DNA from: Leucosporidium creatinivorum
Taxonomy: Eukaryota > Basidiomycota > Microbotryomycetes > Leucosporidiales > Leucosporidiaceae
Direction: 5' to 3'
Length of the DNA: 64,000 nucleotides
NCBI GenBank assembly: GCA_001600635.1
Contig: BCKL01000024.1
Coordinates: 310,260-374,259, forward strand
The notes beneath the pieces were generated by a model. The model did not search any database and was not told the origin of the DNA. It saw only the letters and a program-made list of their open reading frames with translations. A program made the translations under genes and the position numbers. Position 1 is the first letter of the stretch, and each line of letters starts with the position of its first letter. Of this stretch, positions 18,243-64,000 are shown piece by piece.

Positions 18243-18742
18243 AGCTGTAGAAGCATGTCAGTAGATGCTGGAAGCTGGCTCGTAGCTCCATTTCGACTGT
18301 CAACGGTCGCCGAGCCCCTCGAGCGACTCGGGCGAGCAAGTCGAGCGAGCTTCTTTCTCACTCTTGCTTCTCGCCTCGTCTTGCTGCTCTTGAAGCTCGC
18401 TGCTCGTTGGGTCTGCTGGTTGCTGGTGTGCTCAGAGTGGGCAAGCTGCAGCTGGCTGGAAGAACCTCTCGAGCCTGGGGTTCGCCTACAGCTCCCCCCA
18501 TCCGCCGAGCCTCGCTGACCTTCTCTCAGCCCACAGTGAGGTCGAGTCCTTGCGTTGAGTCACTAGAAGAACGATAAGAGAAGGCGTGTAACCCCTCGAG
18601 CTCTATGGTCCACTCGCTTTGCCTTCGTCGCCAGCCCTGACTTCGCCGAGAAGCGAAGATCGCAGCCGAGCGTCGAAACGCACGCTTCTGACCTACAGAG
18701 AGATGCGAGGGTATGCTTTGCGAACGAACGAATCAAGAACTA
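18243..18742 (-). repeat. Dispersed repeat copy between two genes
   Basis: The reverse complement of about 18,280-18,490 matches the repeat at about 640-830 and at 51,130-51,290: shared blocks include CACTCTGAGCACACCAGC, GAGCAGCAAGACG and GGCGAGAAGCAAGAG, followed by GCTCGCTCGACTTGCT. It is degenerate and has no coding sense. The rest of the stretch shows nothing recognisable. Confidence 0.55.
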
Positions 18743-44803: not shown

Positions 44804-45686
44804 GTCGCGGGAGGGAGGCGAGTGAGCCTCGAGGAGGGCGATGGGGAAGGGGGAGCTTGAGCTGTGAAGACGAGAAGAGAACCGATCAGCTACAGCCCTG
44901 CATTGTTCTAGTGTAGATTCATCTAATCCTTTTTCCTCCCTGCTCATCCGACCTCACCTTCATCACAACAGACGCTCGACCCGCCTCGCTCTCTGTCGGC
45001 GGCGCTCCTCAGCCGACCTACTGCTCTCCTGCAGCTCCCAGTCACCATCTAACTACTCAGGAGCACGACTCACCTTCGTAAGCAATCTATCACTCCCGGC
45101 AGCAGCAGCGAACCAGCTTTCCTCGTCTCAGAGCTCAGCGTCCGTCCGTTTCGAGCTTTCGAGCTGGTGAGTGGACGAGTGAGCGAGGACGGAGTCGTCG
45201 AGAGGTAGTCGAGGTGTAGTAGAGCTTCCTATCCGATTCGAGAGGTGTCGGACGGGCGAGAGAGCAACGTCAAGGGAAAAGCGGGAGGAAAAGACACGCT
45301 CGCTCGAAGTTCGCTCTCGACCTGAGGGGAGGGGACTGCGCGCAGAGTGGTGTCGAGTTGTAGGTCGATGCATGACTCTCGTCTGAGGCAAGGTCGACTC
45401 AAAGTCGTGGTGTCTCTCTGCGAGTCGGCGCTAGCTGTCTGCAGCACTCCGGAAGCTCCCTTCGCAAGCGCCGAGCAGGCTTGCTCCTGTCTCGCTCTCA
45501 ACTTGCTCGACCTCGACGCTGACGGAAAGCAAAGCAGGTTGATCAAAATCGTCGTATCCAGCGCATCTCCTTTCCTCGTCTCGAAGCAAGCACGACTACC
45601 TCCCTGCGAAGCGAGAGAAGGTCAGCGAGGCTCGGCGACGAGGGCGAAGGCTGCGATGGAGCTCACCTCTCGACTCGTCGTTCCAA
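44804..45686 (-). repeat. FB4 upstream region and FB5 3' module
   Basis: About 45,230-45,686 (minus strand) is the conserved module downstream of F-box genes, matching 29,600-30,005 and, inverted, 63,613-64,000 and 25,300-25,600. It marks the outermost part of the left inverted-repeat arm inside the window. The 44,804-45,230 part is the FB4 upstream region, with no gene seen. Confidence 0.6.
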
Positions 45687-46591
45687 CTACTCGGCGGCGT
45701 AGTCTGTGTGAGAGAGAAGACGTCAGCGATGGTCTGAATGGGCTCAGGGAGAAGCTCAGAAAGCTCACCGGTGAAGAAGCGGCGGTCGTCGCGAGGCTCA
45801 ATTCCTCGAGCTCGGCAAGCCTCGGCCCACTGGTCACCCTCCGCAGGTGCCAGGGTAGAAGAGTTGACATTGTTCTTCCACACTCGCCAACGCTTTAGAC
45901 TGCCCAACGCAGGAAGCTCGAGCGCCGCTATGAGCTCGACAGCACGGAAGTCGTCTTCGAAAAGTACCTGGGTCGCCAGAACATCGAGGCGGGCGTTCAA
46001 GTGTTCGAGGAGCTCCAAGATGATGTGCGTACGCATCCATTGGAGTTCCAGCGTCTTGAGAGAGGTGCACGCCGTGAGGAAGCCGGCGACGTTGAAGGAC
46101 TCGCTGCCGAGCCATGGCCCACCTCGAGCCGTGAGGCCTACGATCTTCAAGTGGTGCAGTCGGGCAGCGATAAAGCGCATAGGCGATTCGTAGTCCGCTG
46201 GGAGACTCGGGGCGCAAGTGGTGAGAGTGATGTCGAGGCGAGTTAAGGCAGGCGCTGCCTCGAAAAGGGAGGAGAGGAGATCAGGGGAGGGCGGGAACTC
46301 GGCGTTCAGACGAAGGTTCTTGAGCTCGAGCGTGGTGTCGGGAGGGAGACTGTGCAGTCCACTGCAAGGTCCGAAGATCTCGAGCGACTTGAGACCTACG
46401 CCAAGTCGGACGTCAGCTTCACGGGTGAGGGTGGTATCCGCATTGTAAACCATGAGGTCTTGGGAGGGAGACCTCCATGCTGGGGCGACGAGCGAGGTAT
46501 TGCGGAGGTCGACGCTGGAGCGGTATTCTTCGCAGAGAAGCTCGAGGATCCTTCTCAGCAGCTCGGGCGGTAGATCCTGGATGACTGCCAT
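45687..46591 (-). CDS. F-box family protein FB5
   Basis: Two exons (46591-45769, 45703-45687) give 279 residues. The head MAVIQDLPPELLRRILELL and following NTSLVAPAWRSPSQD are almost identical to FB3, the body (LRLNAEFPPSPDLLSSLFEA; LPALGSLKRWRVW) is different, and the end is ARGIEPRDDRRFFT then DYAAE. It lacks intron 1: the old acceptor region (CTGACG...GGCGTAG) is still visible but is read as coding, and about 227 bp present in FB6 between head and body are missing. Either the gene is a shortened functional version or a deletion derivative. Lies in the left inverted-repeat arm opposite FB6. Confidence 0.75.
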
Positions 46592-48640
46592 GTCGAGCGA
46601 GCGAGCGAGTGGGTGAGAGCGTCGGCGAAGGAGGGGAAAGGTAAGAGCTCTGCGGGAGAGCTCGACGAGGGTCAGCCCTCTAGTCTCGCGAGTAGATGTA
46701 CACTGTTGCTCCTCATCGCCTCGAACTCGCCCCTCTGCAGGCTCCGAGTTCCGGACACTGAGCAGCATCGCTCAACACGCTCGCCTCCCTCCAGCTGCGG
46801 CTATGAACTACGATCCCAGCAGCAGCAACAGCACCTCCTACATCCTAAACCCTCACTGTCACAGCCCAACAACCCTAGACTCACCTTCAGTCTTCAGCAA
46901 ACGCGCGTTCCAGTCTCTCAGCAGCTTCCAGCAAAGCGTCCTCTCGAGCTCGTCTTGAGGTGCAGTAGTCGAGTGGGCGTGTAGCAGTCTAGTAGAGCTT
47001 TCTCCTGTAGCTTTCCAGGCGAGTGGCGGCGACGTAGGCGAGAAGACGAGATCAGACGAGTGGAGCGGGAGAGGGCAAGGAAGGAGGCAGCGGGGAGCGG
47101 GAGGGAGGAGATGGGAGAGGGGTTGTGGGTCGGATGGCGAGGGAGCAGACCATGTAGCAGTGTATAGCTCCCATTTTTCTGCTTGCCGCAGCTCAGCAGC
47201 CCACTCTCGATAAGCTGCTCTTCCGCCAAGGTCGACTCGACTTCGCCGAGCAGCGTTCAAGGCTGAGCTTTCCTGGGCGGCTAGCGGGTACAGTCCACTA
47301 CTCTGCACTTGACTTCAGCTACGACCCTTCCTCCATCATCTTGCTGTACTCGAGCGTCCTCTCCTCACTGCGAAACGACCTGCGGAACAGCAAGTCCGAG
47401 TCAGCTGCCGTCGTTTCTGCAGGCTTGGTGGCCTTTCTACACCGCAAGAGCGATGATACAAAGGAAGTGCGTGCTTCTTGTTGCTGTCACTAACGTCGAA
47501 AGGGTGCCATTGGGTCTCCTGAGCAGCAAAAGCGTGGAGTCGAACCTCGGTCGAGGGCTGCAAGAGCGTCAAGCCGAAGGCAAGCTGCAGTCACTCCCTG
47601 ATCTGCAGCAGAGCAGCAATGTGTATATTCCGACTGGACCCGCTTTTTCAAAAGCTGCTGCAGCCCTACAACACAGAGAAGCGAGCAGTCTCAAGCCTGG
47701 CCCGCCGAGCTCGTTCGCTGCTGCAACGGCTGTGCTGCAAGTGTAAAACAGAACGTGGTGCAGCGCAGTACAGCTCGAGAATTATACGGCGAGGGGTAAC
47801 AGCCAACCCCGCTCACCAGGGTAGCAGTTCACTTCAGCATGCTCTCCCGCTGCGCCGCAGGGCGAAAGTCGAGCAGCGCGCTGTATCGATTCAGCAGGCT
47901 TGGAGCTGATTCCGAGCTTCGCGACGGAAGACGTCAGGATAGCTGTCTAGCTTTCCCAGCAGCAGAAAAGCCGCTATGACGTTGACTCCGCCGTCCCGAC
48001 ACTTGCGCCGAGCTTGTCTCGCTTCGCTTCCTCCATTCCTGCCAACAGCAAGCATGTCTGCTGTTCTGTACAGGTTCAAGCGAGGGGTGATAGTGATTGA
48101 AGAGGACGCTGCCAGATGCAAAGCAGCCCAGCAGCGACCCCCAGTGCCCTCGTGCTCGGGGCCGAAAGGGGCAGTGCGAAAAAGCAAGCTGGTGGCGCGC
48201 GCGATAGGCAAGAGCGCAAGAAGCGGCAGCCGAGATCGAGTGGGATCAAAGGCTAACCTCTAATCTGATGCAGAGCTGGGCCTACCCTCACTTTCTCAGC
48301 CGCTCCGAGTCCTTGCGAGCGAAGAAGCCGGCGAGCTCTCGCCGAAATGACAAGTCACCAGCACCCGGATCTGCTTACAGATCAGGGGGAACCTTGGTGA
48401 GAAGAAATTGTGGCAGCTCTAAGAGCACATCGGCCTCCATTGGAAGCAGAATCACTCCTCAGCGCGCCCGATCTCGACCGCCGAGCATCGCAGCGAGCTG
48501 GCTAGTCGGTGCGGAGTCGCTGAGCGTCCAAGCTTTGTATACGAGTCAACAGCTCAATTTCGACGCACATAGGCGACCGCTGCGCTTTGTCGAAGAGCTA
48601 CAGCCCCCTTGGCGTTCAAGAGCGTCGAACTACTGTTAAA
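46592..48640. repeat. Outer part of left arm (leader module and noncoding DNA)
   Basis: 46,860-47,250 is the F-box unit 5' leader module. 47,330-47,440 matches the reverse complement of 61,620-61,740 (shared GAGCGTCCTCTCCTCACTGC and AACAGCAAGTCCGAGTCAGC), and 48,270-48,640 matches 60,430-60,780. No convincing gene; open frames are short and not conserved between arms. Confidence 0.6.
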
Positions 48641-48845
48641 GGGCGAAAGCTCGGCGACCGAGACGTGAGCCGTGGCTGGCGTGTGTAAATCCCCAAGCAG
48701 CGCTGAGCGAGGTGTGCCAGAGGGAAAAGATCAGACTCCTCCCTGCACATGCAGGGAAGTCCTCTGATCGATCTCCAGCCCCCCCCCCCGCCGACCCCCA
48801 GCACAGGATTGGAGAAAGGGCAACAGAAGCAAACAACCTCCACTC

Positions 48846-50530
48846 GTGGGGAACTGGAGGTATACTCACAGACGTCCTATTATGTGTAGTGCACAGCGTC
48901 AGACCACTTTAGGTGTTCCCCGCTGTCCCCTGACCGCCGAAGTCAGCTGGTCATTTAGCGCCGAGCGGCCTGTTGAGTCTTCGAAACAANGCAAGCTCAA
49001 GCCGCTGATATGCACCACACCACCACGCGAAGATGCNGAGATGCNGGTCACCCTGCAAGGCAGAGCAGTCAGACGTCTCAGAGCCAGCCGAACGCCCGCC
49101 GAGCCGGGAGTGAACGTGGCTCGCTACTGTTCTTTCCGGTTTCGGTTGTCTACCGGCAGCCTTCGGCTATCCTCATTCAACCACTAGAACCCTCCAGGAG
49201 AGCACTGAGCAGCCTGAAAGCCTTTGTAAAGACCNCCGAGCTGGCGGCGTCGAGCAGAACGAGCGCCGTTGCTCTGACTAGCNAGGTGCACGCTCCTAGC
49301 CGAGTTATCTGAGGGAGCGAGCATGTGCGGTGCAGAGTGCAGCGCTAANCTCACTCAGCGAGAGCAGCACCACCCTCAGCCCTGCTCGCCTCGCCTTCCG
49401 TCGAGCGTTGCACTGGCAGGCGGTAGCTCTGAGCTCAGCCTTCAGTCCATCAGCTTGCCGCGGCACCGATGAAAAGTCAGAAGCAACCCACTGACTTATC
49501 TTATGAAGCAGCATGCCCCCCTCTGACTCCCCTACGGTGAGCCCAACCTTNGCAGAGCCGGCACCCTTTTGAAGCTCGGGATTTCCAGTGCACTACAGTG
49601 AGCCCAGATAGCTACCTGCGCTCGGACTTTTACATGCCCTACAACCTGGCCGCATACCTACTTGCAGTGGATGAGCGCACCAAGTAGGCGAGGCGAGTAG
49701 CGAGCGAGTTGAGGACCGAACGGCGGACGTCGACGGTGCAGAGAGGCAGAGTGGAGTTGGGTGGTGGAGTAGAGCAGACTACAACGCACCTTCAAGAAGC
49801 AGNGCACCCGTCTCAGCCCATCCTGGTCCCCTGCAGCGCCTTTCTCATGTTGCCTCTACTCGTTGGCTCGGCCTTCAGTCCAGCAAGAGCTCCCCTCCGA
49901 CTCTTGAGACTGCAGCTGGCGTTAGGCGACTGCTCACTCTCATGCAGCTGACCCACCCGACTCTGACCGCAGTCAGGCGAGCTCAGCAGAGCAGACGGCG
50001 CGACGAGGACGAGAGCCGAGAGGGGAGGAGGGACTNCGCCGCTCGAGCTGGGCGTGTCCAGAGTAGCGCTGCGTTGCGGTGAGCACACTCTACAATAATG
50101 TGCACATAGCACAGCCGCCCGAACTCCCGAGTGATCAAGCAAGCTCAGCGAGAGAAGAAACTAGGCGANAGCGAGCGAGCGGAGTGCAGTCGAGCGCAGC
50201 GCCGTTGTCCCTCGATGAGGTAATTACTTTCAGTGACCCCTACAACAGCTATCTACTCCGTCCAACCACCTTGGAGCGATCAGGCAAGCTCAGCGTGCAC
50301 GAGCAAAGGAAATGGAAATGGCTCTACAGCGTTGACTGACCGCCTGCTCGGCGTGCAGGCGACTTCTGGCTCTCGGACCTCTCAACCAGGTTCAGCTTAG
50401 ATGCCCGACCGCCTCTGCGATCAAGCAACCCCAGCACGGTTGAAGCGTACCGAGAGAGAGGACGAGACTCGCCGACCTCAGCGCACGGCGCGGCGTGCAG
50501 AGGATCACAGAAGCTGACGCTCATTACACG
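48846..50530. repeat. Near-identical core of left arm, with N bases
   Basis: Reverse complement of 55,893-57,577. It contains N at 48,990, 49,037, 49,045, 49,235, 49,283, 49,349, 49,551, 49,803, 50,037 and 50,168. The last seven have mirror partners in the other arm; the first three do not. No protein-coding function is recognised despite several open frames of 60-115 codons. Confidence 0.85.
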
Positions 50531-51060
50531 ACAATATAAACAGCAGGATCACCCGACCGACCTAGCGATCAAGCGAGCTCAGCAAGCGAGCGAGTTGGCG
50601 AAGCGCACGCGGAGCAGAGAGTCGACAGCGACCCTGCGCTCGGCTCGGCCTGCAGAGGGCTGCAGAACCTGACACCAGGTGCAACGGCGTGAGAAGCAGA
50701 GTCGCCCGGCGGCTTTAGCAACCGGACGAGCTCAGCAATCCCAGCAGCGAGCGAGCGAGCTCCAATCAAGGTCAGAGGGAGCGACTCCCTCCTCATCTCG
50801 AGAGCTGAGGGCGATCCTCGTCTACCGGCAAGACGTGGCAGCCAGCTCTGGCATATGCAGCTTGAGTACATACACCAGTAGCGAGCGAGCAGACCTGACG
50901 AGCAGCGGCGAAAGCAGAGAGGAGCCAGCCATTGCACCTTGACTCGACGTGCAGTGGAAAGCAGAAGTTGACACCCACCTGAGAGGAGGCGTCAGCAGAT
51001 CCGCCTGACCGCCTCAGTGATCAAGCGACCTGTGCAGCCCCAGCAGCGAGCGAGCGAGCG
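49950..51060. repeat. Degenerate satellite-like repeat, about 150-bp period
   Basis: A motif close to CCGACCGCCT-AGCGATCAAG followed by CGAGCTCAGC recurs near 49,957, 50,118, 50,260, 50,405, 50,547, 50,707 and 51,006, spaced 142-161 bp (one double step of ~300). Sequence between the motifs also aligns between neighbours (for example CGGCGTGCAGAGG...CAGAAGCTGAC and CGGCCTGCAGAGG...CAGAACCTGAC). Mirror copies lie at about 55,850-56,470, and two related units at about 365-560. Confidence 0.6.
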
Positions 51061-51314
51061 TGCGCAACGAAAGCAGAACGAGCGAGCGAGGAGGGCGTGC
51101 TCGTTACCCTACTCGACGGTCGAGTGAGCGTGCATCCAGCTACAGCATACCCGAGCTGAGAACACTATCAGCCAGCAGAGCCCTCGAGCAGCAAGACGAG
51201 GCGAGAAGCAAGAGGGAAAGAGGCAAGCTCGACTTGCTCGTCCACTGCGAGTCGCTCAGGAAGGCTCGGCTCGGTGCTCATTTCGCTTTCGAGGTTACTG
51301 CTCTACAAGATCTC
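51061..51314 (+). repeat. Dispersed repeat copy in the palindrome loop
   Basis: About 51,120-51,290 matches 620-830 and the reverse complement of 18,280-18,490 (blocks CAGCATACCC, GAGCAGCAAGACGAGGCGAG, AAGCTCGACTTGCTCG). Degenerate and noncoding. Confidence 0.5.
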
Positions 51315-52130
51315 TCAGTAGTGCGTCATTCGACGTCCCACGAAGCGCAGTGCTACAGAACTTGTCTCTACACCTAAACAGAACACACACTCGTTGCCTC
51401 CCTCTTTCCCCCCTCTCAACGCTCCCCTGCCTCGCCCGTACACTCCCTTCAACCCCTCTCCACCACCACGCTTCTCTCCTTCCCACCCACCGTTCCCCAG
51501 TTCATCCCACAGTCCGGCCCCATCTCCTCGCTGCTCCCCCAGCTCGCCCGCCGAGCCGAGCTTCCCCTCCTCGCATGATCCACCTCTCCACCTCTTCCAT
51601 CCTCCCCGTGCTCTCCTCCTCTCGTAGACAGCGATGGGTCTCCAGAGTTCGGAGGCAGCTCGGCGCTGGGGACAGAGAGGTGGGAGGTCATCAGTCGAGT
51701 GCGAAGGGATTGGAGGGTGAGGTTCGGCGATTAAGGTGCCGGATTTGGTGAGGGGCATCGAAGGGGCGTGGAGGGTCCCAGCTGAGGGAGAGGGAAAGGG
51801 AGGAGCAGAGCGGGTGGAGATGAGGGGAGGGCGGCGAGCAGGGAGGGCGGCGAGTAGAGAAGAGAAGCGGTGGGCGGATGGCGCGAGGCGGGAGAGGTAG
51901 GGAGGTAGGCGATGGAACACAGAGCTGCGTTGTGAGACGCGAGCGTGCTTGGTGAGGAAGAGCAGGTCTAAGGATTCGGGCGCAGGGTCAGCGCCGAGCG
52001 CTCCGAGAGAAGGGAGAGCTCACTGGCTAGCAGCTGCTCCGACAGGTCGAGCATCACATGACTCCCACCCTCCAGCAGCCTCGACCCCCTCACCTCGACT
52101 CCAGCCTCTTCATCCTCCTCCCCGAACCTC

Positions 52131-52221
<91 letters not shown>

Positions 52222-52378
52222 ACCCCCCCCCCCCCCCCCCGGGAGTCGAGTTGACCCTCCTCTCCCGCTCCCCGCTCGCCCTCCAGCTTCTCCACCCCCT
52301 CAGAACCACTTTCTCCCGACCCTGCCACTCCTCCCCCTCCCCCTCCCACGGGAGCCTCAGCTCCAGCGCCCGCTTCGA
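51315..52378 (-). CDS. Possible gene of unknown function with poly-glycine tract
   Basis: Two candidate exons join across a CTGAC-containing intron (about 51,968-52,017). The first reads through the poly-C tract as glycine and continues FGEEDEEAGVEVRGSRLL and VMLDLSEQLLA. The second reads DLLFLTKHARVSQRSSVFHR, LPPYLSRLAPSAHRF, LLAALPARRPPLIS and ELWRPIAVYE. The second exon looks like real protein rather than noise, but no family was recognised. The true start and 3' end are unclear, and the reading frame across the homopolymer depends on its exact length. Confidence 0.35.
52133..52240. repeat. Poly-C homopolymer tract (87 C, then GGA, then 18 C)
   Basis: 52,133-52,219 is an uninterrupted run of 87 C; three bases later 18 more C follow (52,223-52,240). 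On the minus strand this is a G-tract able to form G-quadruplexes or code glycine. Its length is probably uncertain in the assembly. Confidence 0.95.
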
Positions 52379-52874
52379 CTAACCGAGGGAGATGAGCGAT
52401 GGGGTGGTGCGAAGGAGAGTGATGTCTGGCGGGGCGGGCGTGAGATGAGTGTCAAGAGGCTTGAAAGAGGATGGGAGGGCGGCTTTTGGGGTGGGTGAGA
52501 TGGAAGAGTTCGGGGGAGGGCGCCGAGCCGAGTTGAGCTCGGCGGAGAGAGTTCGGCGAGCGGTCGAGGGCAGTGGTTGAGGGAGGGAGGGGGCGCTGTA
52601 GGTCGTAAGCTGGTCCTCGCGCTTTGTGCTGTGGCGAGGAGCAGGCGTCCGGTCTGCTCAATTAGCTAGCCCTCTCCATTCCCTCGGCGACGGCGAGCCT
52701 TCGCCCTCTCCCTCTCTTCCCCCCTCTCCCTCCCAGCAGTCCCTCAACGCGAGCAAGGCGTACCGTGAACAGCCTGATAATACACCTTCTAATCCTACAC
52801 ACATCGACTCCCGCTCTTGCTCCTGAGCATCCTCGCGCGCTCGCCGGTTTCAAAGTTCCCAACGCCTACATAGT

Positions 52875-53739
52875 CTACTCATCGTCCTTCGGCGGTGGAG
52901 GGCCGCAGGGTTGGAGCATCCTCTGTGGGTGGAGGTGAGTAGTCTCGTTAGCTATCAATCTTCTTCCTTCCTGTTTCTATCTCTTTGCTTCCTTCTCCTG
53001 GCCCCCTCCCTTCCCTCCCTTGCCTTCCCTCCCCTCCTCCTTCTTCTTCCAATTCTCGCTCCGCTCGGGCTCGTTCTCCTGCTATTCTTCCTCGATCCCT
53101 AATCCCCTCCCGTTCCCCCCCTCTTTTCTAACTCGCTTCGCTCGGAGGAGTTCCCCTTCGAGTCGCTCTCTAATCCCCCTCTTCCTCTTCTTCTAACTCG
53201 CTCCGCTCGAAAGAGGTCGCCTTCGGCTCCCTCTCTAATCCCCCTCTCCCTCTCCTCTGAACTCGCTCCGCTCGTAAGACCTCGCCTACGGCTCGGTCCA
53301 CTAACTCACCTCTGTCAACTCAAACTTCATCCTCCCCGTACTCTCCCCATCTGCCACGCTCATATAATTTAAGAGGGTAGGATGCCCAATGATGGAAGCG
53401 TAGGTGTCGCGATGTTGGTGGGTGAACCATTCACTGTGAGTTTGAGGAGCGAAGCGAGTCAGCGAGCGGCGGCGGCGGCGGGCGTGGCTGGGGAGCAGAG
53501 GGAAGGAAGAGGGAGACGGACTATTTGGTCATATCGGCGTGTCCCGTTCCTGTAGTAGAGCACACCCGTCAGCAGCGCACAGCAGAGAGAGAGTGAGAGC
53601 AAGGAGACGAGACTGACCAGTGTAGCGAGCGTGTAGTTGAGCAATTTGCGTGTTGGCCGTGTGTCGTAGATCGCTCTACAATGTACCGGATTAGCTCGGT
53701 GCTGCTGTAGCCTTGTAGCTCGTGAGGTGGGCTCACCAT
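52875..53739 (-). CDS. SF3B5: Splicing factor 3B subunit 5 (SF3b10)
   Basis: Five exons (53739-53737, 53675-53618, 53549-53522, 53433-53310, 52922-52875) join in frame to exactly 86 residues, the length of human SF3B5. Motifs are unmistakable: GTGHADMTKYEWFTHQHRD, GHPTLLNYMSVADGES and ERMLQPCGPPPPKDDE. It is a small core subunit of the SF3b part of U2 snRNP, acting in branch-site recognition in the nucleus. The first exon is only the ATG: the start codon is directly followed by a GTGAG donor. Intron 4 is long (387 bp) and contains a tandem repeat. Transcribed divergently from LRP1, with 87 bp between start codons. Confidence 0.95.
53095..53300. repeat. Three-copy tandem repeat inside SF3B5 intron 4
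   Basis: Three imperfect copies of a ~62-70 bp unit, each with CTAATCCCC, a pyrimidine run, AACTCGCT(T/C)CGCTCG and a CCTTCG- or CCTACG-like end. The unit contains a short self-complementary element (CGCT...CGCTCG). Lies wholly within an intron. Confidence 0.7.
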
Positions 53740-53826
53740 CTTGGGCTGAGGTTATAGTAGTTGGAAACCAACCCATCTCAGCTCTCTCTCTCCCGCTTTC
53801 ACCTCGTTTTCTGTACCTCATCAGCC
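53740..53826. promoter_or_regulatory. Compact divergent promoter of SF3B5 and LRP1
   Basis: Only 87 bp separate the two start codons, so both RNA-processing genes must share promoter DNA or overlap in their leaders. The middle is pyrimidine-rich on the plus strand (CTCTCTCTCTCCCGC). No TATA box is seen. Confidence 0.6.
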
Positions 53827-55194
53827 ATGTCCGACACCGACCCCACGCTAGCTTTGTCCTCCCTCTCCTCCTCCCTCTCCACGCTCGAACAAACCCTCCT
53901 TCCCCTCCTCTCAACTCCCTTCACCTCGCATCTCTCCGGCCCCGAAGGCTCAGAGGGGGTCGAACCACTGCTACAGGCGAGGTTGGAGGTGTTGACCGGA
54001 TATGTAGTGCATGATTTAATTTGGAGTGAGTTGTCTCTGTTCTCTCACTACAGAGGGATGCGCGAGGAGAGCTGGGCGAGGAGTGCGTTTTGCTGAGGAG
54101 GAAAGCTGATAGAGAGGGAGTAGTCTACTGCAGGACAGTAGGCGTGGATCCCAACGCACATCCCGTATTGCAGGAGCTGGTGCGTCCCTCCTCCTTCCTT
54201 CCTTCTGCAGCTGAGTGAGAAGCAGCCGAGCTAACCCTTCTCTCCTCCCCTCCCCTTTCCTCTCCCTCTCCGCGATGGGTTCCGGACACGCACAGCTCCG
54301 CCTGAAATCCTACTTTGACAAGCTCAAGAACGCCGAACAGCCTGTAGTAGAGAAGGGTACGCCTTTCCCTTCGCTTCGGTCCTCTCGGCTCGGCTCGCTA
54401 ATCTTCGCCGAACAACCTTCCTCTCTGCTCCTGCCGCCCTCCATCCCACCCACCTCATCTCCTCCCCCACCCCACCCCACCCCCACCCCGCTGGTCACCG
54501 AACCTCGTCCCGGCTTCATCTTCATCTTCCTAGCCCGACCCCAACTCGATAAAGCCGCCGCCTCGCGCTTCATCAACGCCGCTATCAACTCTGCTCGACC
54601 GAGGACCCCTGCAGACTACACGCCTACTGCTGGGCCGAGTACGCCGCAGGAGCTCGGCGAGAAGGGAACGCATACGAGGTTTGATGGGGAGGTGGAGGGG
54701 GATGTGGAGAGGTTGTTGGAAAGCGAGGAGGAGGGTAGTAGTGAGGAGGAGGTGAGGGTGGAGAAGGTGGAGCCTAAGAAGAAGGTGGACATCGGGAGCA
54801 AGGGCAAGGCGAGTGCTGCTGGGAGGCCGAGGATGGATCCTTTTGCTGGTGAGTCCCAGCTCTCTCATCCCTTCTTCCTTCTTCCCCTTTCTCCCTTGTA
54901 TCCCTCCCCTACTCGCCTGACCGCCCGACTCGAACCGCTCGCTAACGATTCGCCGAACTTGGAACAGGCTACGACGACCCCTCCTCCTCCTCCTCCAAGT
55001 CCAAGAAGTCTAAATCCGCCTCCAAGCCCTCCACCCCCCAACCTCCCACCACCACCGTATCAGCGCCCTCATCAGGGGAGAAGAGGAAGGCCACCGACTC
55101 CCCCTCGACCGGCGTAGCGGGAACGCCGAGCGGCAAGGCAGCGGGGAAGAAGGATAAGAAGCTCAAGATGAAGGGTGGGAAAGCTGGGAAGTAG
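53827..55194 (+). CDS. LRP1: Exosome cofactor LRP1/RRP47 (C1D family)
   Basis: Five exons (53827-54025, 54121-54179, 54296-54356, 54534-54848, 54968-55194) join in frame to 286 residues. The Sas10/C1D fold is seen in LSTLEQTLLPLL, YVVHDLIWIVYCRTVGVDPN, AHPVLQEL and RLKSYFDKLKNAEQ, ending with LDKAAASRFINAAI. The C-terminal half is acidic (ESEEEGSSEEEV) then Lys-rich (KKDKKLKMKGGK), as in yeast Lrp1/Rrp47, which binds Rrp6 and structured RNA in the nuclear exosome for rRNA and snoRNA 3' processing. It lies in the loop of the inverted duplication. Confidence 0.9.
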
Positions 55195-55780
55195 GGGGCG
55201 CATAGGAAGCTAGGAGGTGGTGGTGGTGGGAGTGTATTGTACGATTCGCCGCGCTACCAGATGGAAGAGGGAGAGGAGGAAAGTTGTGCCGAGAAGCAGG
55301 GCTCGGCGAGATAGATCTTTCGCTCCTCGTTGGGTCTGCTACAGCGTTCTACCACGGTTCGCTCGCTGAGGGATCAGACCTACTCTGCACGTTCTTGTCC
55401 TGGTAGTGGCCTGCTTGAGATGCGAAACGAATCCTCGAGGGTCGACTCGAAACTCGACTCGCTCGCCTCTCTCCCTCCTCCTGCCTCGACTCACCTCGTC
55501 TCGTCTCCTCTCTGCTTTGGCTCGCTGCTCATCGGTTCTGCTCCTCGCTACTAGTGTGCTCAGTTTGAGTATGCTGTAGCTGGGTGCTTGCATCTGTCTA
55601 CGAGAAGGGTCGCTACAGCGCTCTCGAGATGAGGAGGGAGTCACTCGTTCTCAGATCTTGTTGCGCTCGCTCGCTCGCTCCTAAGGCTGCGGCAGTCTCT
55701 TGATCGTCCAGGCGTTCGGGAGGCTGTGCTGGAACTTGGTGCCGAGCGAGAACCACTTGTGAAGCTCTCTCCACGCCGAG
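55195..55780 (-). repeat. Downstream of LRP1; diverged repeat copy
   Basis: The reverse complement of about 55,400-55,680 resembles 50,760-51,250: shared GACTCCCTCCTCATCTCGAG, CTCGTCTAC, AGCATAC and ACACTAGTAG-like blocks. Identity is much lower than in the core arms. No gene is seen. Confidence 0.5.
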
Positions 55781-57590
55781 CCGAGCGCTTGGGCCGCCGT
55801 TAACTCTCTGCTCCGCGTGCGCTTCGCCAACTCGGCAGCTTGCTGAGCTCGCTTGATCGCTGGGTTGGTCGGGTGATCCTGCTGTTGGTGATCATGTGAT
55901 GAGCGTCGACTTCTGTGATCCTCTGCACGCCGCGCCGTGCGCTGAGGTCGGCAAGTCTCGTCCTCTCTCTCGGTACGCTTCGACCGTGCTGGGGTTGCTT
56001 GATCGCAGAGGCGGTCGGGCATCTAAGCTGAACCTGGTTGAGAGGTCCGAGAGCCAGAAGTCGCCTGCACGCCGAGCAGGCGGTCAGTCAACGCTGTAGA
56101 GCCATTTCCATTTCCTTTGCTCGTGCACGCTGAGCTTGCCTGATCGCTCCAAGGTGGTTGGACGGAGTAGATAGCTGTTGTAGGGGTCACTGAAAGTAAT
56201 TACCTCATCGAGGGACAACGGCGCTGCGCTCGACTGCACTCCGCTCGCTCGCTNTCGCCTAGTTTCTTCTCTCGCTGAGCTTGCTTGATCACTCGGGAGT
56301 TCGGGCGGCTGTGCTATGTGCACATTATTGTAGAGTGTGCTCACCGCAACGCAGCGCTACTCTGGACACGCCCAGCTCGAGCGGCGNAGTCCCTCCTCCC
56401 CTCTCGGCTCTCGTCCTCGTCGCGCCGTCTGCTCTGCTGAGCTCGCCTGACTGCGGTCAGAGTCGGGTGGGTCAGCTGCATGAGAGTGAGCAGTCGCCTA
56501 ACGCCAGCTGCAGTCTCAAGAGTCGGAGGGGAGCTCTTGCTGGACTGAAGGCCGAGCCAACGAGTAGAGGCAACATGAGAAAGGCGCTGCAGGGGACCAG
56601 GATGGGCTGAGACGGGTGCNCTGCTTCTTGAAGGTGCGTTGTAGTCTGCTCTACTCCACCACCCAACTCCACTCTGCCTCTCTGCACCGTCGACGTCCGC
56701 CGTTCGGTCCTCAACTCGCTCGCTACTCGCCTCGCCTACTTGGTGCGCTCATCCACTGCAAGTAGGTATGCGGCCAGGTTGTAGGGCATGTAAAAGTCCG
56801 AGCGCAGGTAGCTATCTGGGCTCACTGTAGTGCACTGGAAATCCCGAGCTTCAAAAGGGTGCCGGCTCTGCNAAGGTTGGGCTCACCGTAGGGGAGTCAG
56901 AGGGGGGCATGCTGCTTCATAAGATAAGTCAGTGGGTTGCTTCTGACTTTTCATCGGTGCCGCGGCAAGCTGATGGACTGAAGGCTGAGCTCAGAGCTAC
57001 CGCCTGCCAGTGCAACGCTCGACGGAAGGCGAGGCGAGCAGGGCTGAGGGTGGTGCTGCTCTCGCTGAGTGAGNTTAGCGCTGCACTCTGCACCGCACAT
57101 GCTCGCTCCCTCAGATAACTCGGCTAGGAGCGTGCACCTNGCTAGTCAGAGCAACGGCGCTCGTTCTGCTCGACGCCGCCAGCTCGGNGGTCTTTACAAA
57201 GGCTTTCAGGCTGCTCAGTGCTCTCCTGGAGGGTTCTAGTGGTTGAATGAGGATAGCCGAAGGCTGCCGGTAGACAACCGAAACCGGAAAGAACAGTAGC
57301 GAGCCACGTTCACTCCCGGCTCGGCGGGCGTTCGGCTGGCTCTGAGACGTCTGACTGCTCTGCCTTGCAGGGTGACCTGCATCTCCGCATCTTCGCGTGG
57401 TGGTGTGGTGCATATCAGCGGCTTGAGCTTGCATTGTTTCGAAGACTCAACAGGCCGCTCGGCGCTAAATGACCAGCTGACTTCGGCGGTCAGGGGACAG
57501 CGGGGAACACCTAAAGTGGTCTGACGCTGTGCACTACACATAATAGGACGTCTGTGAGTATACCTCCAGTTCCCCACAAGTGGAGGTGTT

Positions 57591-58166
57591 GTGGTGGGGA
57601 GGGAGAATCAGCAGGAGCAAGATCCGGACAACCCCGTCTTCGAGGACATCTTCCAATCGGACTCCCCTTCCCCCTTCCCTTCCCCCTCGCTTCACTCCCT
57701 TTCGCCTTCGCCTGCCTCCATCTACGGCTCTCCTCCTACGAGTCTCGTCAACAGCAACATCACCTCCCTCGACGACGATGCAGTCGTACAGCAACCTTCT
57801 CAGCCCGAGCCTACGCAAGACCCTCGTCCTCGCCTTCGTCGTTACGAGTGGCCTTCGCCTCCTTCCGCCGACACCGAGACTGCTACCGAGGACCTCAGCA
57901 AAAGCAAGGAGCGCGAGAGGTCGCCTCACTCTTCCGACCTTCCTTCCCTTCCTTCCACTGCGCCTATCTCCGCCCAACTCCCTCTCTTTCGCGCTCCGTC
58001 CTCTTCGCCCCAAGCTTCGACATCGCGCATCCGCTATCCCACCCCTCCTCGCACTCGCAACCCCTACCGCGGCTCTCCCTACCCTACCAACCGTCTCATC
58101 GCCGCTCTTCCTCGCATCCTCGACCGTTCTGGCCGCGTTTGGCCCACCCTCATCCTCGCCGAGTAG
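57591..58166 (+). CDS. Ser/Pro-rich open frame within the insertion
   Basis: An open frame of 191 codons without an ATG at its start (opens GTG-GTG, V-V-G-R-E). It is Ser/Pro-rich with patches such as RRYEWPSPPSADTE and NPYRGSPYPTNRLIAALPR. No family recognised. It starts within a few bases of the insertion boundary, so it may be the 3' exon of a captured gene. Confidence 0.3.
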   Translation: MVGRENQQEQDPDNPVFEDIFQSDSPSPFPSPSLHSLSPSPASIYGSPPTSLVNSNITSLDDDAVVQQPSQPEPTQDPRPRLRRYEWPSPPSADTETATEDLSKSKERERSPHSSDLPSLPSTAPISAQLPLFRAPSSSPQASTSRIRYPTPPRTRNPYRGSPYPTNRLIAALPRILDRSGRVWPTLILAE

Positions 58167-58440
58167 AGATTCACCGGACTTGGGCATCAAGGATCGATTA
58201 CAGCGGACCCGGATAGAGCGGGAATGGTAGCGAGTAAGGTGGAGATGTATTGGGACACGTTTGGAAGGAGGGCGAGGGCATGGGATGGCCTTTGGGCTGG
58301 ATTGGGAAGGAGGAGCGACTCGGTCATGGGATTTTTTGGCTTCGTTTGGGTATAGGATGTATCGGAGGAGCAAGTAGAGTACGCATTCAGGTTTATTACA
58401 CACTTCCCCACTTTACTACCTCGTGCTGCGCCTTGGTAGT

Positions 58441-58452
58441 GGGTATAAAAGC
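58441..58452 (+). promoter_or_regulatory. TATA box inside the insertion
   Basis: GGGTATAAAAGCC lies upstream of a pyrimidine-rich leader and of an apparent 5' intron (donor GTGAGC near 58,581, acceptor CCACAG near 58,703). It suggests the insertion carries its own promoter for the gene at 58,774. Confidence 0.5.
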
Positions 58453-58773
58453 CGTTCTTCGTAGTTGCCTCTCTTGCTTCTTCACCACACCTGCAGTTTA
58501 AGTCTTTCACACTCTCTTACATCTTCCCCGAGATACATACGAGAGAAACCGAGCCTCGCAGTGCCCCCATCGTGCTCTTGTGGTGAGCCATAGCCCTCAA
58601 ACCCGCCTTTCCCCTTCACATCTCTCCTCCCCTTTCCGTCGCTTCCCACTCCTCCTTCCTCCTTCCCCTTTCTCCTACCACCTCCCTACCCTCACCTCCA
58701 CAGTGTGGTCGGTCGGGAGTCTTCTCCCTCCTTTACTCCCACTTCGCCTAACCTCTCGCCTACCACTCCGGAA

Positions 58774-59433
58774 ATGGCAACCCGCTCGCTCACCAACGAT
58801 CCCAACTTCCCCATCTACTACCCGCCTACACCTACTCTCCACCCCGTCGCCACCAACGCTACGACTTCAGCTTCAACCTCGGCCTCAGCTTCAACTTCGG
58901 CCTCGACCACGACTTCGGCCCAAACAGCTTCGGTGGATCTCACGCACGACGACATCCCCTCCACGACTGTCATCCCTTCCACGACCATCACTAGCTACGA
59001 TCAACAGCACGTCGCGCCAACCGAAGCCAACGCCGAGCCCTCTGGATCGCTTCGCCGCACCGACGTCGATGAACTCAGCTTTCAGTCGTTCTACCACCCC
59101 GACCCTCCCGCTTACACGTCTCCCAACACCACCCCTCATCGCCCTCGAGCTCGCACGCCCCCTGGAACTCCCCCTTCTCGCCGTCGCTCGCATCCCAACC
59201 ACTCGCCATCGATCTCATCTCCCCTCGCCTCCACTTCCTCCTCGCCTTCGTCACTCCGTCGTCACTCTAGGAGGAACCGAACCATGGTCAGCTACGTTGA
59301 TCTTGATGCGCCTGAGGTGGAGGAGCAAGAGCGGGAGGGATCGCCGAGGAGGGGGAGGACCTCGGAACCCATCCCCGAGGGTCTCGAGGAGTCGGTAGAG
59401 GCGGAGATGAGGGAGAGAGGTACCAGGGAGTAA
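58774..59433 (+). CDS. Ser/Thr/Pro-rich hypothetical protein within the insertion
   Basis: Start chosen at the first ATG after the apparent leader intron (MATRSLTNDPNFPIYYP), giving 219 residues. It has an alternating Ser/Thr/Ala low-complexity run (about residues 30-50), a more conserved-looking stretch RRTDVDELSFQSFYHPD, an Arg/Ser/Pro segment and a charged tail MVSYVDLDAPEVEEQERE. No domain recognised; likely disordered. The exon also begins with the V-V-G-R-E coding sequence seen at 57,591, upstream of this ATG. Confidence 0.4.
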   Translation: MATRSLTNDPNFPIYYPPTPTLHPVATNATTSASTSASASTSASTTTSAQTASVDLTHDDIPSTTVIPSTTITSYDQQHVAPTEANAEPSGSLRRTDVDELSFQSFYHPDPPAYTSPNTTPHRPRARTPPGTPPSRRRSHPNHSPSISSPLASTSSSPSSLRRHSRRNRTMVSYVDLDAPEVEEQEREGSPRRGRTSEPIPEGLEESVEAEMRERGTRE

Positions 59434-60227
59434 GGGGATCGAGGAACGAGGGAGTAGGGGGAAAAGGGAACGAGGGAAGGGAGGATTTGGGGGAGGGGCG
59501 AGGAGGAGATCGGACTTGGAGGGTGAGGGGGAAGAGGTGGAGGAGGGAAGAAAACAGGAAAAGAGGGTAGAGGAAAAGGGGGAGTAGGAGGAGCCGGGGG
59601 ATGTAGACGAGTAGGGGGATGTAGACGAGTAGGCCGTTCTGGGGTACACGTTCGAGGGTTCTTGGATTCGCCTCTTAAAGGCCGTTTCTCTCTTTCTCTC
59701 TTGTTCTTCACGACCCTGCAAGCCCAAGAATTTACCCATATTCTTTCTGCTGCTAATCCCTTCGCGAGCTCTTAGTCGTCAGCTCAATTCCCCTCCTTCA
59801 CACCTTTCGCCGAACTCCCCCCCCCCGCTCCCTCATCTCCCTCTCCTCCTTACTCCTCTTCTACTCCCTCAATTGCTCCCCTCGTTGAAAAGTCAACAAG
59901 GTTCCCATACATCGTCTACCTTCCCGTCACCTCACTTACTCTCTACCTGTCTTCCTTCCCTTCCTACCCCTCTTCGCCGAGCTCCGCCCTTCCCTCGAAC
60001 CTCGCCTCATTCTTCCTAGTCTCGCTCCCTCTTAGTTTAGCACTCTCGATAGTTTCCCCTTAATTAGTTCGTCCTCTCTAGTACTACTTCCTCTTCACTT
60101 AGCACTCCCCTTGTCGCGCCAGCAAGCCGACAATCTATCGCCGAACCCCTCAGCTCGCTCCTCGCTAGCTCACCCCTGCCTTCGCCAAGGCAGCGCCGGT
60201 CTCGCCACTTCACCCAGCGACACCACA
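59434..60227. other. 3' part of the insertion
   Basis: G-rich then pyrimidine-rich DNA with two adjacent copies of GGGGGATGTAGACGAGTA (about 59,595-59,632). No gene seen. Confidence 0.4.
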
Positions 60228-62480
60228 GAGGTTGTTTGCTTCTGTTGCCCTTTCTCCAATCCTGTGCTGGGGGTCGGCGGGGGGGGGCTGGAGATCGATC
60301 AGAGGACTTCCCTGCGTGTGCAGGGAGGAGTCTGATCTTTTCCCTCTGGCACACCTCGCTCAGCGCTGCTTGGGGATTTACACACGCCAGCCACGGCTCA
60401 CGTCTCGGTCGCCGAGCTTTTGCCCTTTAACAGTAGTTCGACGCTCTTGAACGCCAAGGGGGCTGTAGCTCTTTCGACGAAGCGCAGCGGTGCCTATGTG
60501 CGTCGGAATTGAGCCGTTGACTCGTGTTCAGAGCACGGACGCTCAGCGACTCCGCACCGACTGTCAGCTCGCTGCTCTGCTCGGCGGTCGAGGTCGACGA
60601 CGCTGAGGGGCGGATCTACTTCTAGTGGAGGTGGGTGAGCTCTTCTGACTGCAGGTATCTCCTCTTTGCCAAGCTTATCTGAGATGTCAGAAGTCTCGGG
60701 TGCTGGTGACATGTCATTTCGGCGAGAGCTCGCCGGCTTCTTCGCTCGCAAGGACTCGGAGCGGCTGAGAAAGTGAGGGTAGGCTCAGCTCTGCATCAGA
60801 GTACAGCGTAGGTTCCGACTCCCAGCTCATCTCTGCTGCGCTCTTGCCTATCACGCGCGCCACCAGCTCGCTTCTTCACCCTGCTCCTTTCGGCGCGGAG
60901 GACAAGGGCTCCGAGGCTTGCTGCTGGGCCGCTGAGCACTATGGCATCGGCCTCTATAACTCGAGCATTCTTTGACGATTGTACAACGACGGGCGGGCAT
61001 GCTAAGCTATCAAGCCACTCGCAGGGGGACGAGGCGGACTCGCAGTCGGAGCTCGGTGTGAGAGTTCAGAGCGGCATGAAGTGAGCTACTTTGCAGCTCA
61101 AGGAAGGAAGCGAATTCCTCTAATTGTCTACTGTCGAGCCCTTGCCGAAGCTTTGAGCTTTCTGTCTCGACACAGGGCGCCTGCCGGCTTTCGCCCCTCG
61201 GCGCAGTGGGAGAGCACGCTGAGGTGGACTGCTGCCCTGCCGAGCGGGGTTGGCATTTGCCTCTAGCTGTGCACTCACAAGCCTGCACGTTCACCAGCTT
61301 CCACCAGCTAGAAGCTTGCAGACATTGCAGCAGCGCCACACCTCGGGGAACGACGAAAAGACTTGAGGCTGCTCGCTGCTCTACAGGATGAGGCAGCAGC
61401 AGCTTCTGATGAGGTCGACGTGTTTTTCATACATCCATTATCGAGCTGCTGTCGAGCTGGGATTGACTGCAGATTGTCGTCCGTCTGACACCCTCTGGCA
61501 GCCCTCGGCCGACGGTCGACAGTCGAAATCCAGCTTTCACGCTGTCGAAGGACACTGTCATCCCTTTCAGCTTCGAGCACAGCGCTAGAAAAACGGGTCT
61601 CCATCCGCTCATCCCTAAGACATCGTGAGAAAGGCCTGCAACCCTGCAGAAACGACCGTGAGCTGACTCGGACTTGCTGTTTCGCAGGTCGTTTCGCAGT
61701 GAGGAGAGGACGCTCGAGCACAGCAAGCTGATGGAGGAAGGGTTGTAGCTGGATCAAAGTGCAGAGCTGTAACCTGTAGCCGCTAGCCGCCCAGGAAAGC
61801 TCAGCCTTGAACGCTGTTCGGCGAAGTCAACCTCGGCGGAAGAGCAGCTTGACGAGAGTGTTTCTCTGAGCCGCAGCAGGTCGAAGGCTCGAAGTTACCA
61901 GGCAGCTACATCTCTGCTCCTTGCAAGTCCACCAGCACCCCCTCTCCCAGGTCGCCTAGATAGCCTTCCCCTCCCCACCCTTTCTCCTCCCTTGCCCTCT
62001 CCCGCTTCACTCGTCTCAACTCGTCTTCTCGCCTACGTCGCCGCCACCCGCCTGGAAAGCTGCAGGAGGAAGCCCCACTCAACTGCTACACGCCCACTCG
62101 ACCGCTGCACTTCAAGACGAGCTCGAGAGGACGCTTTGCTGGAATCTGCTGAGAGACGGGGACGCGCGTTTGCTGGAGATTGAAGGTGAGTCGAGGGTTA
62201 CTGGGCGGTGGCAGCGACGGGCGAGGATGTATAAAAAGCTGCTGTTACTGGTCCCGGGACGAGGGTCAGCGTGTAGCAGCTGGACGGCGTCCGTGTCGAG
62301 CGAGACTGCTCAGTTGTGGGGGCTGGCGAGCTGCAGAGAGAACGGTAGCGAGGTGAAGAAAAGAAGCAGTCTCCACTGACGTGTGAGAGTCGCATGCTGA
62401 TCCTCGTCGTACCCGTCCGCAGAACTGTTCCCCTCCCCCTCCTTCGCCGACTCTCACTTCGACCTGCTCGCCCCCTCGAC
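60228..62480. repeat. Outer part of right arm up to FB6
   Basis: 60,232-60,430 matches 48,640-48,838 almost exactly; 60,430-60,780 matches at about 90%; 61,620-62,190 matches 46,870-47,440 with more changes, including the F-box unit leader module, which ends at a GTGAG donor near 62,187. A TATA-like TATAAAAAGC lies at 62,230, and an acceptor CCGCAG near 62,422 could end a leader intron just before FB6. No other gene is supported. Confidence 0.6.
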
Positions 62481-63612
62481 ATGGCAGTCATCCAGGATCT
62501 ACCGCCCGAGCTGCTGAGGAGGATTCTCGAGCTCCTTGCAGAGGCTCAACACGCCAGCGGCGAGCTTTGTAGGACCTCCTTGGTCGCCCGAGCGTGGCGA
62601 GAACCCTCGCGCCAGCTCCGTCTTTACACTACGGATTTCGGCTACCTAGTCCAGAAAGGATCCTGGTATCGTGTTCGCCATGCAGAAGCCTGCGCCATCC
62701 GACAAGTGGCATTCTTTCGGTGTAACGGGGAGGAGCTGCTCGAATTGCTGGAGGAGTTCCGCCCGAGCGTGCAGACGTTGGCAGTGGCGAGCGCTTACCC
62801 CGACTGGCGCGTAGATTTCAGCAGGATGAACGCCGAGGTCCTCGCCCGTACGCTCGTGCCTTCTCAGGTTGATACCGCGTTGCTCACCAATCCCCACTTC
62901 TTCCCAGGCGTACACTGCCTCGAGCTTTGGGGAGATGTCGATGGACAGCCGGACGTCACGAGCAACAGCATGCTCGAACTCCACGCCTTGGGCTTACACT
63001 CGAACTGCCCACCGTCCCCGCTCTTCCTCGACGCCCTTCTCAGCGCGACGCCCTTCTTGACCCGACTCCAGCTATGGGCAAGCGGCGGGGAGCCTTTCTT
63101 TCCAGCACACTTCAATTCAGCCCTGAGCCCCATTGCTCACCAACTCGTTCACCTCACACTTTGCGTCTCGTCGACGCCAATCGCACGGACTCGTTCGACG
63201 TCGTTGACTTTGTCGCCTCCTGCACTTCTCTTCGCTCCTTGAAGCTTTATGAAACTGTTTTCTCGGTCAGGAAGTGCCTTTTCGCGGCTCTGTGTGGCCC
63301 TCTCTTGCTTTTGGAGACCGACTTGGGGACAGTATGGAGTGAAGATGGCAAGGGCATCGCCGAGCTGATAACTATCCTCGAGCTTCCTCCGATGGCGACA
63401 CTTCGTCGCTGGAGGATCAATGGGCCAGCCAGTTCGCGGGATGTGCTGGACGAGGAAGAGCGGAGCCAGTGGGCAGCAGCTTGCCAAGCTCGAGGAGTCG
63501 AGCCTCGCGACGAGCGCCGATTCTTTACCGGTGAGCTTTCTGAGCTTCTCTCTGAGCCCGTTCAGACCATCACTGACGTCTTCTCTCTCCTCCAGACTAC
63601 CCCGCCGATTAA
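62481..63612 (+). pseudogene. F-box family member FB6, one frameshift
   Basis: Head MAVIQDLPPELLRRILELL, then RTSLVARAWREPSRQL; body with LELHALGLHSNCPPSPLFL and, in a second frame, FVASCTSLRSLKLYET, PPMATLRRWRI, ARGVEPRDERRFFT and a last exon D-Y-P-A-D (stop at 63,612). The two halves lie in different frames, joining near 63,160 where LVHLTL should run into RLVDANRTD. One indel there, real or a sequencing error, would explain it; no intron fits. The last intron (about 63,531-63,595) has a good CTGAC branch site. Partner of FB5 in the other arm. Confidence 0.7.
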
Positions 63613-64000
63613 CTGGGACGACGAGTCGATGGGTCAGCTCCATCGCCGCCTCTCCGCCGAGCCGCGCTGACCTCTCGCATCGCAGGGAGGTCGACGTACT
63701 TGCTGTCGAGACGATGTGAGGAGATGCACTTGATACGATGTTCTTGATGAACTTGTTTTGCTTTCCGTCAGCGCCGAGGTCGAGCGAGTTGAGAGCGAGA
63801 CAGGAGAAGGCTGCTCGGCGCTGGCAAAGGGAGCTTTTGGAGTGCTGCAGACAGCTAGAGCCGCCTCGCAGAGAAACAACAAGGATTTTAGTTGAGCTTG
63901 CCTCAGGTGAGAGCCGTGCATCGACCTACAACTCGACCACCCTCTCGCGCTCTCCCCTCCAGGTCGAGAGCGAACTTGGAGCGAGCGCCTCTTTCCCTCC
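63613..64000 (+). repeat. FB-unit 3' module at the window edge
   Basis: Reverse-complement match to 45,290-45,686 and same-strand match to 25,300-25,600: shared TTGTTTTGCTTTCCGTCAGC, GAGAAGGCTGCTCGGCGCTGGC, GGAGTGCTGCAGACAGCTAG and the GGTCGAGAGCGAACTT block. Runs off the window. Confidence 0.65.

Follow-up and report, generated by a model that had tools for sequence, protein, structure and literature searches.

Inverted gene pairs that are held alike, with gene conversion proposed as one possible cause, already have a published precedent in Caenorhabditis, in which long near-identical inverted repeats lie between paralogous gene pairs (PMC1803023). The palindromes of the human Y and X chromosomes have inverted arms more than 99% or 99.9% alike, and rare inversions have been reported for them (PMC3723533, PMC8981503). 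Basidiomycete F-box families supply a third reference point: a row of values for PF12937 in Rhodotorula reads 20, 34.6 and 13.1 (PMC10662464), and a row for PF00646 reads 3-43 (PMC4469406).

The locus described here lies in the window, the whole 64,000-nucleotide stretch of DNA that was analysed (contig 24, positions 310260-374259, of the 27.7-Mb Leucosporidium creatinivorum genome, which is assembled in 63 contigs). It resembles the Caenorhabditis pairs in its mirror-image paralogues and in arms much more alike than their flanks, but here many copies exist beside the pair, the comparison covers one genome, and the loop measures 5.4 kb and carries host genes; the Caenorhabditis structure recurs across species, and the spacers given for it are short, 126 and 414 bp (PMC1803023). 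With the human palindromes it shares inverted arms of the kind held alike by arm-to-arm conversion, whereas only about 1.9 of the 5.7 kb of each arm is near-identical here (PMC3723533, PMC8981503). As in the basidiomycete families, the genes are F-box-like, with related stretches mostly in two contig regions; with 150 candidates scored out of 330, the genome yields at least 149 matches to PF12937 at E<=0.1, a count of six-frame matches not strictly comparable with counts of annotated domains. A search for literature joining F-box, fungi, ectopic gene conversion and gene family found none.

The facing arms and their loop

The features of the locus, in window coordinates and with strand where one applies, are as follows.

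45284-48592: outer left arm, 84%, 74% and 86% identical to the right arm, block by block
45596-46591, minus strand: left-arm F-box-like gene, start codon at 46591, with related units on the contig
48593-50513: left copy of the core, near-identical, with 10 single-base Ns
50532-55891: 5,360-bp loop separating the two arms
53310-53441, minus strand: SF3B5 (SF3b10) exon, PF07189 at 60.5 bits against a cut-off of 27
53761-54093, plus strand: open frame, possible LRP1/C1D, weak Sas10/Utp3/C1D match
55910-57587: right copy of the core, inner part, with 7 single-base Ns, each mirrored
57588-60227: insertion of 2,640 bp, mobile-element-like
60228-60473: right copy of the core, outer part past the insertion, near-identical
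60474-64000: outer right arm
62481-63242, plus strand: right-arm F-box-like gene, start codon at 62481, PF12937 at E 2.7e-06, above the cut-off

Self-comparison covered 164 kb, namely the window and 50 kb added on either side. Within the window, an anti-diagonal with a coordinate sum of 106,423 pairs 48836-50924 with 57587-55505 at 94.1% identity over 2,101 columns, far exceeding chance. Beyond the 2,640 bp inserted into the right arm, the mirror sums shift to 109,056-109,284; the two F-box start codons add up to 109,072 where 109,063 is expected, and homology between the arms runs beyond the window end, reaching about 44757 on one side and 64534 on the other. The original prediction had drawn both landmarks, the core sum and the near-expected F-box starts, and they are borne out; the self dot-plot likewise contains the anti-diagonal whose absence that prediction had named as evidence against itself.

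The prediction of facing arms over 5 kb long was right about the symmetry and too generous about the likeness. The inverted core spans 1,696 bp at 99%, or about 1.92 kb (48593-50513) when the segment beyond the insertion is counted, with boundaries picked after the differences had been viewed, and the outer blocks of the left arm match the right arm at 85.9%, 73.7% and 84.2%. Two inverted arms and a spacer are thus present, but near-identity is confined to some 1.9 kb, with the outer blocks at 74-86%, and other copies are closer across most outer parts; the arms are nearest to each other within the core, and the right arm also has its top raw identity with the left arm over the F-box 3' part. 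The term "giant palindrome" overstates a genuine mirror symmetry.

The insertion is bounded by GAGGT at 57583-57587 and 60228-60232, a 5-bp target duplication, of which the left arm holds a single copy (ACCTC on the plus strand, 48836-48840), and its termini are short TGTGGTG/CACCACA. A genome search with it returned 21 matches including itself, among which partial copies reach either end and none is full length: positions 1-1113 recur twice on contig 2 at about 90%, and parts of 1938-2640 recur in many places, mostly at 73-78%. A target duplication together with copies elsewhere having the same ends marks it as mobile-element-like, and the three frames tried in it gave no Pfam match.

Both genes named for the loop by the original prediction were examined, and the two fare differently. 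The SF3B5 exon is secure and is the sole genome match at E<=0.1 in a profile search of the contigs. The open frame at 53761-54093 matches PF04000 weakly (E 0.0018, 19.3 bits against a cut-off of 30), the genome-wide PF04000 search missed it while returning one match on contig 7, and comparison with solved structures gave no match at E<=1, so that LRP1/C1D is a possible but weakly supported assignment. Next to the left arm, the loop contains a 108-base run (52133-52240) that is 97% C.

The two F-box-like genes have nearly identical starts. The left-arm gene matches PF12937 at E 0.006 and 16.8 bits, under the curated cut-off of 24.3. Similarity of the right-arm gene to it extends, by eye, in a different frame to about 63667, and the frame change after 63242 reflects either an intron or a shift. 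In eight of the 11 units within the 164 kb, an open frame beginning with a MAVIQDLP-like sequence, a pattern of our own devising, sits where it is expected; by that pattern the units at 299, 387 and 419 kb have none. The PF12937 profile search placed matches at three sites on contig 24 (372.7, 245 and 449 kb; 150 of 330 candidates scored). F-box-like matches are numerous on contigs 4, 8, 9, 16, 22 and 26.

Copies of the arm unit and their nearest relatives

The arm unit occurs four times on contig 24, three times in plus and once in minus orientation.

Contig 24, 304-311 kb, plus: arm-unit copy
Contig 24, 356.8-361.2 kb, plus: arm-unit copy forming the left arm
Contig 24, 365.8-372.8 kb, minus: arm-unit copy forming the right arm
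Contig 24, 387-391 kb, plus: arm-unit copy

A genome search with 45500-47400, which takes in the left F-box gene and the stretch upstream of it, returned 44 matches. Of these, 29 fall at 230-455 kb of contig 24 and 11 at 70-158 kb of contig 6; the other four are three short ones on contig 20 and one on contig 17. When neighbouring matches are merged by eye and short fragments near 236, 258, 335 and 386 kb are excluded, contig 24 has about 15 units with the F-box-start stretch, eight in plus orientation (261, 299, 304, 341, 356, 382, 387 and 418 kb) and seven in minus (230, 245, 286, 372, 404, 449 and 453 kb); several have in common just the gene start and the upstream stretch. Since many copies occur in either orientation, facing neighbours are expected, and 4 of the 14 adjacent unit pairs do face each other, against 3.5 expected under random orientation (including the 335-kb fragment adds one more facing pair). 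What had been taken for a special giant palindrome is one of several facing neighbours in a multicopy cluster. A solitary 150-bp piece of the unit's inner end is also found at window 18306-18458, 83% identical to the copy at 634-781.

That the core encodes a gene was considered and dismissed: no frame is prominent among the copies, as judged by eye, and none of seven frames from the arms' upstream region has a Pfam match at its own cut-off, six having no match at all and the frame at 47285-47743 having two weak ones (best E 0.0097). Observed/expected CpG ratios are 0.84-0.91 in the units, 0.89 in the insertion, 0.71 in the loop, 0.87 and 0.91 in two other stretches of the cluster and 0.93-1.10 in the remaining stretches, about ten in number; depletion in the units is mild, and we claim no footprint of repeat-induced hypermutation.

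Outside the core, the alignments indicate that the arms are mostly not each other's closest relatives. In a four-copy alignment, the left arm is 88-96% identical to the 387-kb copy over 47764-48329, and over 47570-48139 the right arm is 94-96% identical to the 304-kb copy, with left and right at 58-60%. In the core the two arms agree at 99-100%; the 304-kb copy follows at 89-97% over 48728-49494, beyond which it drops to 77% or lower. Further out, contig positions 370487-372793 (window 60228-62534) match the 304-kb copy at 84% over 2,346 bp. The F-box sequences give a similar picture. A tree of the 5' part (11 sequences) joins the right arm to the 419-kb copy with support 1.000 (90.6% identity) and places the left arm poorly (0.412), and a tree of the 3' part (8 sequences) joins the left arm to the 405-kb copy with support 0.994 (96.4%); left and right are 77.4% identical in the 5' part and 87.0% in the 3' part. 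The right-arm 3' part has no close tree partner, and its top raw identity is to the left arm, the next being 86.2%.

Runs of agreement at variable sites were compared with 2,000 permutations made by shuffling variable columns, which ignores rate variation along the sequence, so the resulting values are not strict probabilities. The longest left-right run, 658 sites over 48848-50465, was equalled in none of them. Outside the core, none reached the runs of the left arm with the 387-kb copy (80 sites, 47800-47997), of the right arm with the 304-kb copy (32 sites) or of the right arm with the 387-kb copy (14 sites), and a small left-right excess (11 sites) was matched in 4 of 2,000.

An alternative is a true palindrome, formed by one inverted duplication, in which, as the original prediction had it, conversion between the arms holds the centre alike while the ends drift. 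Strict mirror coordinates, an identity peak within the arms and the affinity of the right F-box 3' part to the left arm are all as such a history would have them, but each outer arm is mostly nearer a third copy, the arms share about 58-66% (ungapped columns) at 47382-48140 where each is 77-96% identical to other copies, and plus and minus copies are intermingled across about 225 kb of contig 24; we consider this origin unlikely. Its conversion component is retained, as conversion in the core is the best explanation and has the support of the 658-site run. Drift of the flanks sits badly with outer parts that are mostly nearer to third or fourth copies, a pattern to which the right F-box 3' part runs counter. 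The simplest account of the patchwork is ectopic gene conversion among many copies, the latest event being between the facing two; much the same picture would result if the pair had arisen by a recent inverted duplication and its flanks had later been converted with other copies.

Ambiguous bases in the core

Seventeen of the 19 Ns in the window fall within the two cores. All seven in the right core mirror Ns in the left core, which has ten; the three left-core sites resolved in the right arm are those that adjoin the insertion most closely, 154-209 bp off its junction, where the right arm is distinguishable. Because single-base Ns sit at mirrored positions, the core identity is partly an assembly consensus, and the predicted value of about 99%, though recovered over the 1,696 bp, is in part one consensus written twice. 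The pattern suggests that the assembler pooled reads from both cores, except in the right core near the anchoring insertion. Resolution of three sites only beside that insertion indicates that the two arms are probably both real, with a difference of about 0.3-0.8% between them.

Five resolved left-right substitutions occur over the roughly 1,920 bp of 48593-50513, which puts core identity at about 99.7% when no N is counted as different and about 99.2% when each of the ten is; a single length difference of 2 bases does not enter the estimate. Each of the five is of the CpG/TpG or CpG/CpA type, as 7 of the 10 core N sites could be, a bias that resembles true variants and not random errors. Isolated mirrored Ns are best fitted by converted ambiguity codes; the Ns may also be withheld letters.

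Across the 164 kb, 17 of 38 isolated N sites lie inside the core arms and 27 in repeats, the other 11, near contig position 263 kb, being outside any repeat of this stretch. A repeat pair on contig 2 (99.8% over 1,084 bp) has one N in common and one unshared. No N occurs in two 5-kb stretches elsewhere or in a 10-kb stretch that carries an inverted F-box pair of 90.7% identity. The first 10,000 bases of contig 24 contain 42 N runs, mostly single bases, and these, like the 11 isolated Ns outside repeats, speak against the pooled-copy account of the Ns. Judged from the assembly and not from reads, the middle of the core could differ more than it looks, and assembly switches could form part of the patchwork.

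Mirrored Ns would also be left by a core that is mainly a product of assembly, a single real copy, or two far less alike, written twice, and exact duplicates do occur elsewhere in this assembly. On contig 30, 1,773 identical bases lie on either side of a gap, probably an unmerged overlap; contigs 47 (53,587 bp) and 48 (53,564 bp) are identical in reverse over 2,413 of the 2,500 bases compared and are possibly duplicate scaffolds; the ends of contigs 24 and 6 are a third case, described below. At the core edges, however, resolved bases set the two arms apart and the flanks next to them are different, three left-N sites are resolved on the right arm, and the outer arms diverge on both sides, all of which leaves such an origin quite improbable. 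Because the flanks diverge on both arms and bases are resolved differently, it is unlikely that the second arm is an assembly error.

Origin of the facing pair

The facing pair is, with good probability, the joint outcome of a multicopy F-box cluster, recent ectopic conversion of the core and a pooled assembly consensus. This account builds on direct observations of copy number, orientations, the nearest-relative patchwork, mirrored Ns and the insertion. The cluster consists of dispersed copies of a unit in either orientation with other genes in between, the unit being an F-box gene start preceded by as much as about 4.5 kb of DNA that appears non-coding, and two adjacent copies face each other around SF3B5 by happenstance. 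Ectopic gene conversion has probably homogenised some 1.9 kb of these two copies recently, to about 99.2-99.7%, as earlier conversions probably did for other copy pairs. A mobile element would later have entered the right copy, or the conversion would have tolerated it. The assembler would then have put one joint consensus in both cores, with Ns where the copies differ. Such a mirror arrangement would need no special function.

Other inverted pairs exist in the assembly. Contig 16 carries a 1.29-kb pair, 90.7% identical, about 4.7 kb apart and with both members F-box. The end of contig 24 equals the start of contig 6 in reverse over 5,291 bp, made up of identical 1,137-bp inverted arms and a 3,017-bp loop with a glutamine-synthetase-like stretch (PF03951); beyond the arm end, similarity drops at once to ~86% over a 140-bp flank. 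This fits contigs 24 and 6 being neighbours at an unresolved inverted repeat, which would give one F-box cluster of ~390 kb, and it also fits separate ends that have a repeat in common. The latter reading is favoured by contigs 31 and 11, which share at least 2,050 bp near their ends at 99.9% and have no internal inverted arms in the 3.7 and 4.0 kb covered.

From general knowledge of inverted repeats, flipping of the loop between the arms is plausible. That the pair is an inversion switch for the SF3B5 loop, as inverted 1.9-kb arms at about 99% might suggest, and as might the opposite loop orientations at the ends of contigs 24 and 6 if these are neighbours, is extremely improbable, the second case being possibly the assembler's choice or two separate contig ends. 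A broader proposal is a long shot: an F-box cluster of perhaps ~390 kb over contigs 24 and 6, in which several near-identical inverted pairs recombine often and flip loops of housekeeping genes (SF3B5; the glutamine-synthetase-like stretch), so that gene order would vary within the species.

The arrangement is real but ordinary: two copies in a multicopy F-box cluster face each other, their core was homogenised recently, and their assembly is in part pooled. The case shows that such a pair can mimic a giant palindrome, and that mirrored ambiguous bases betray one consensus common to two assembled repeat copies. Should the loop prove able to flip, the segment being inverted would carry a splicing gene for which no second copy was found.
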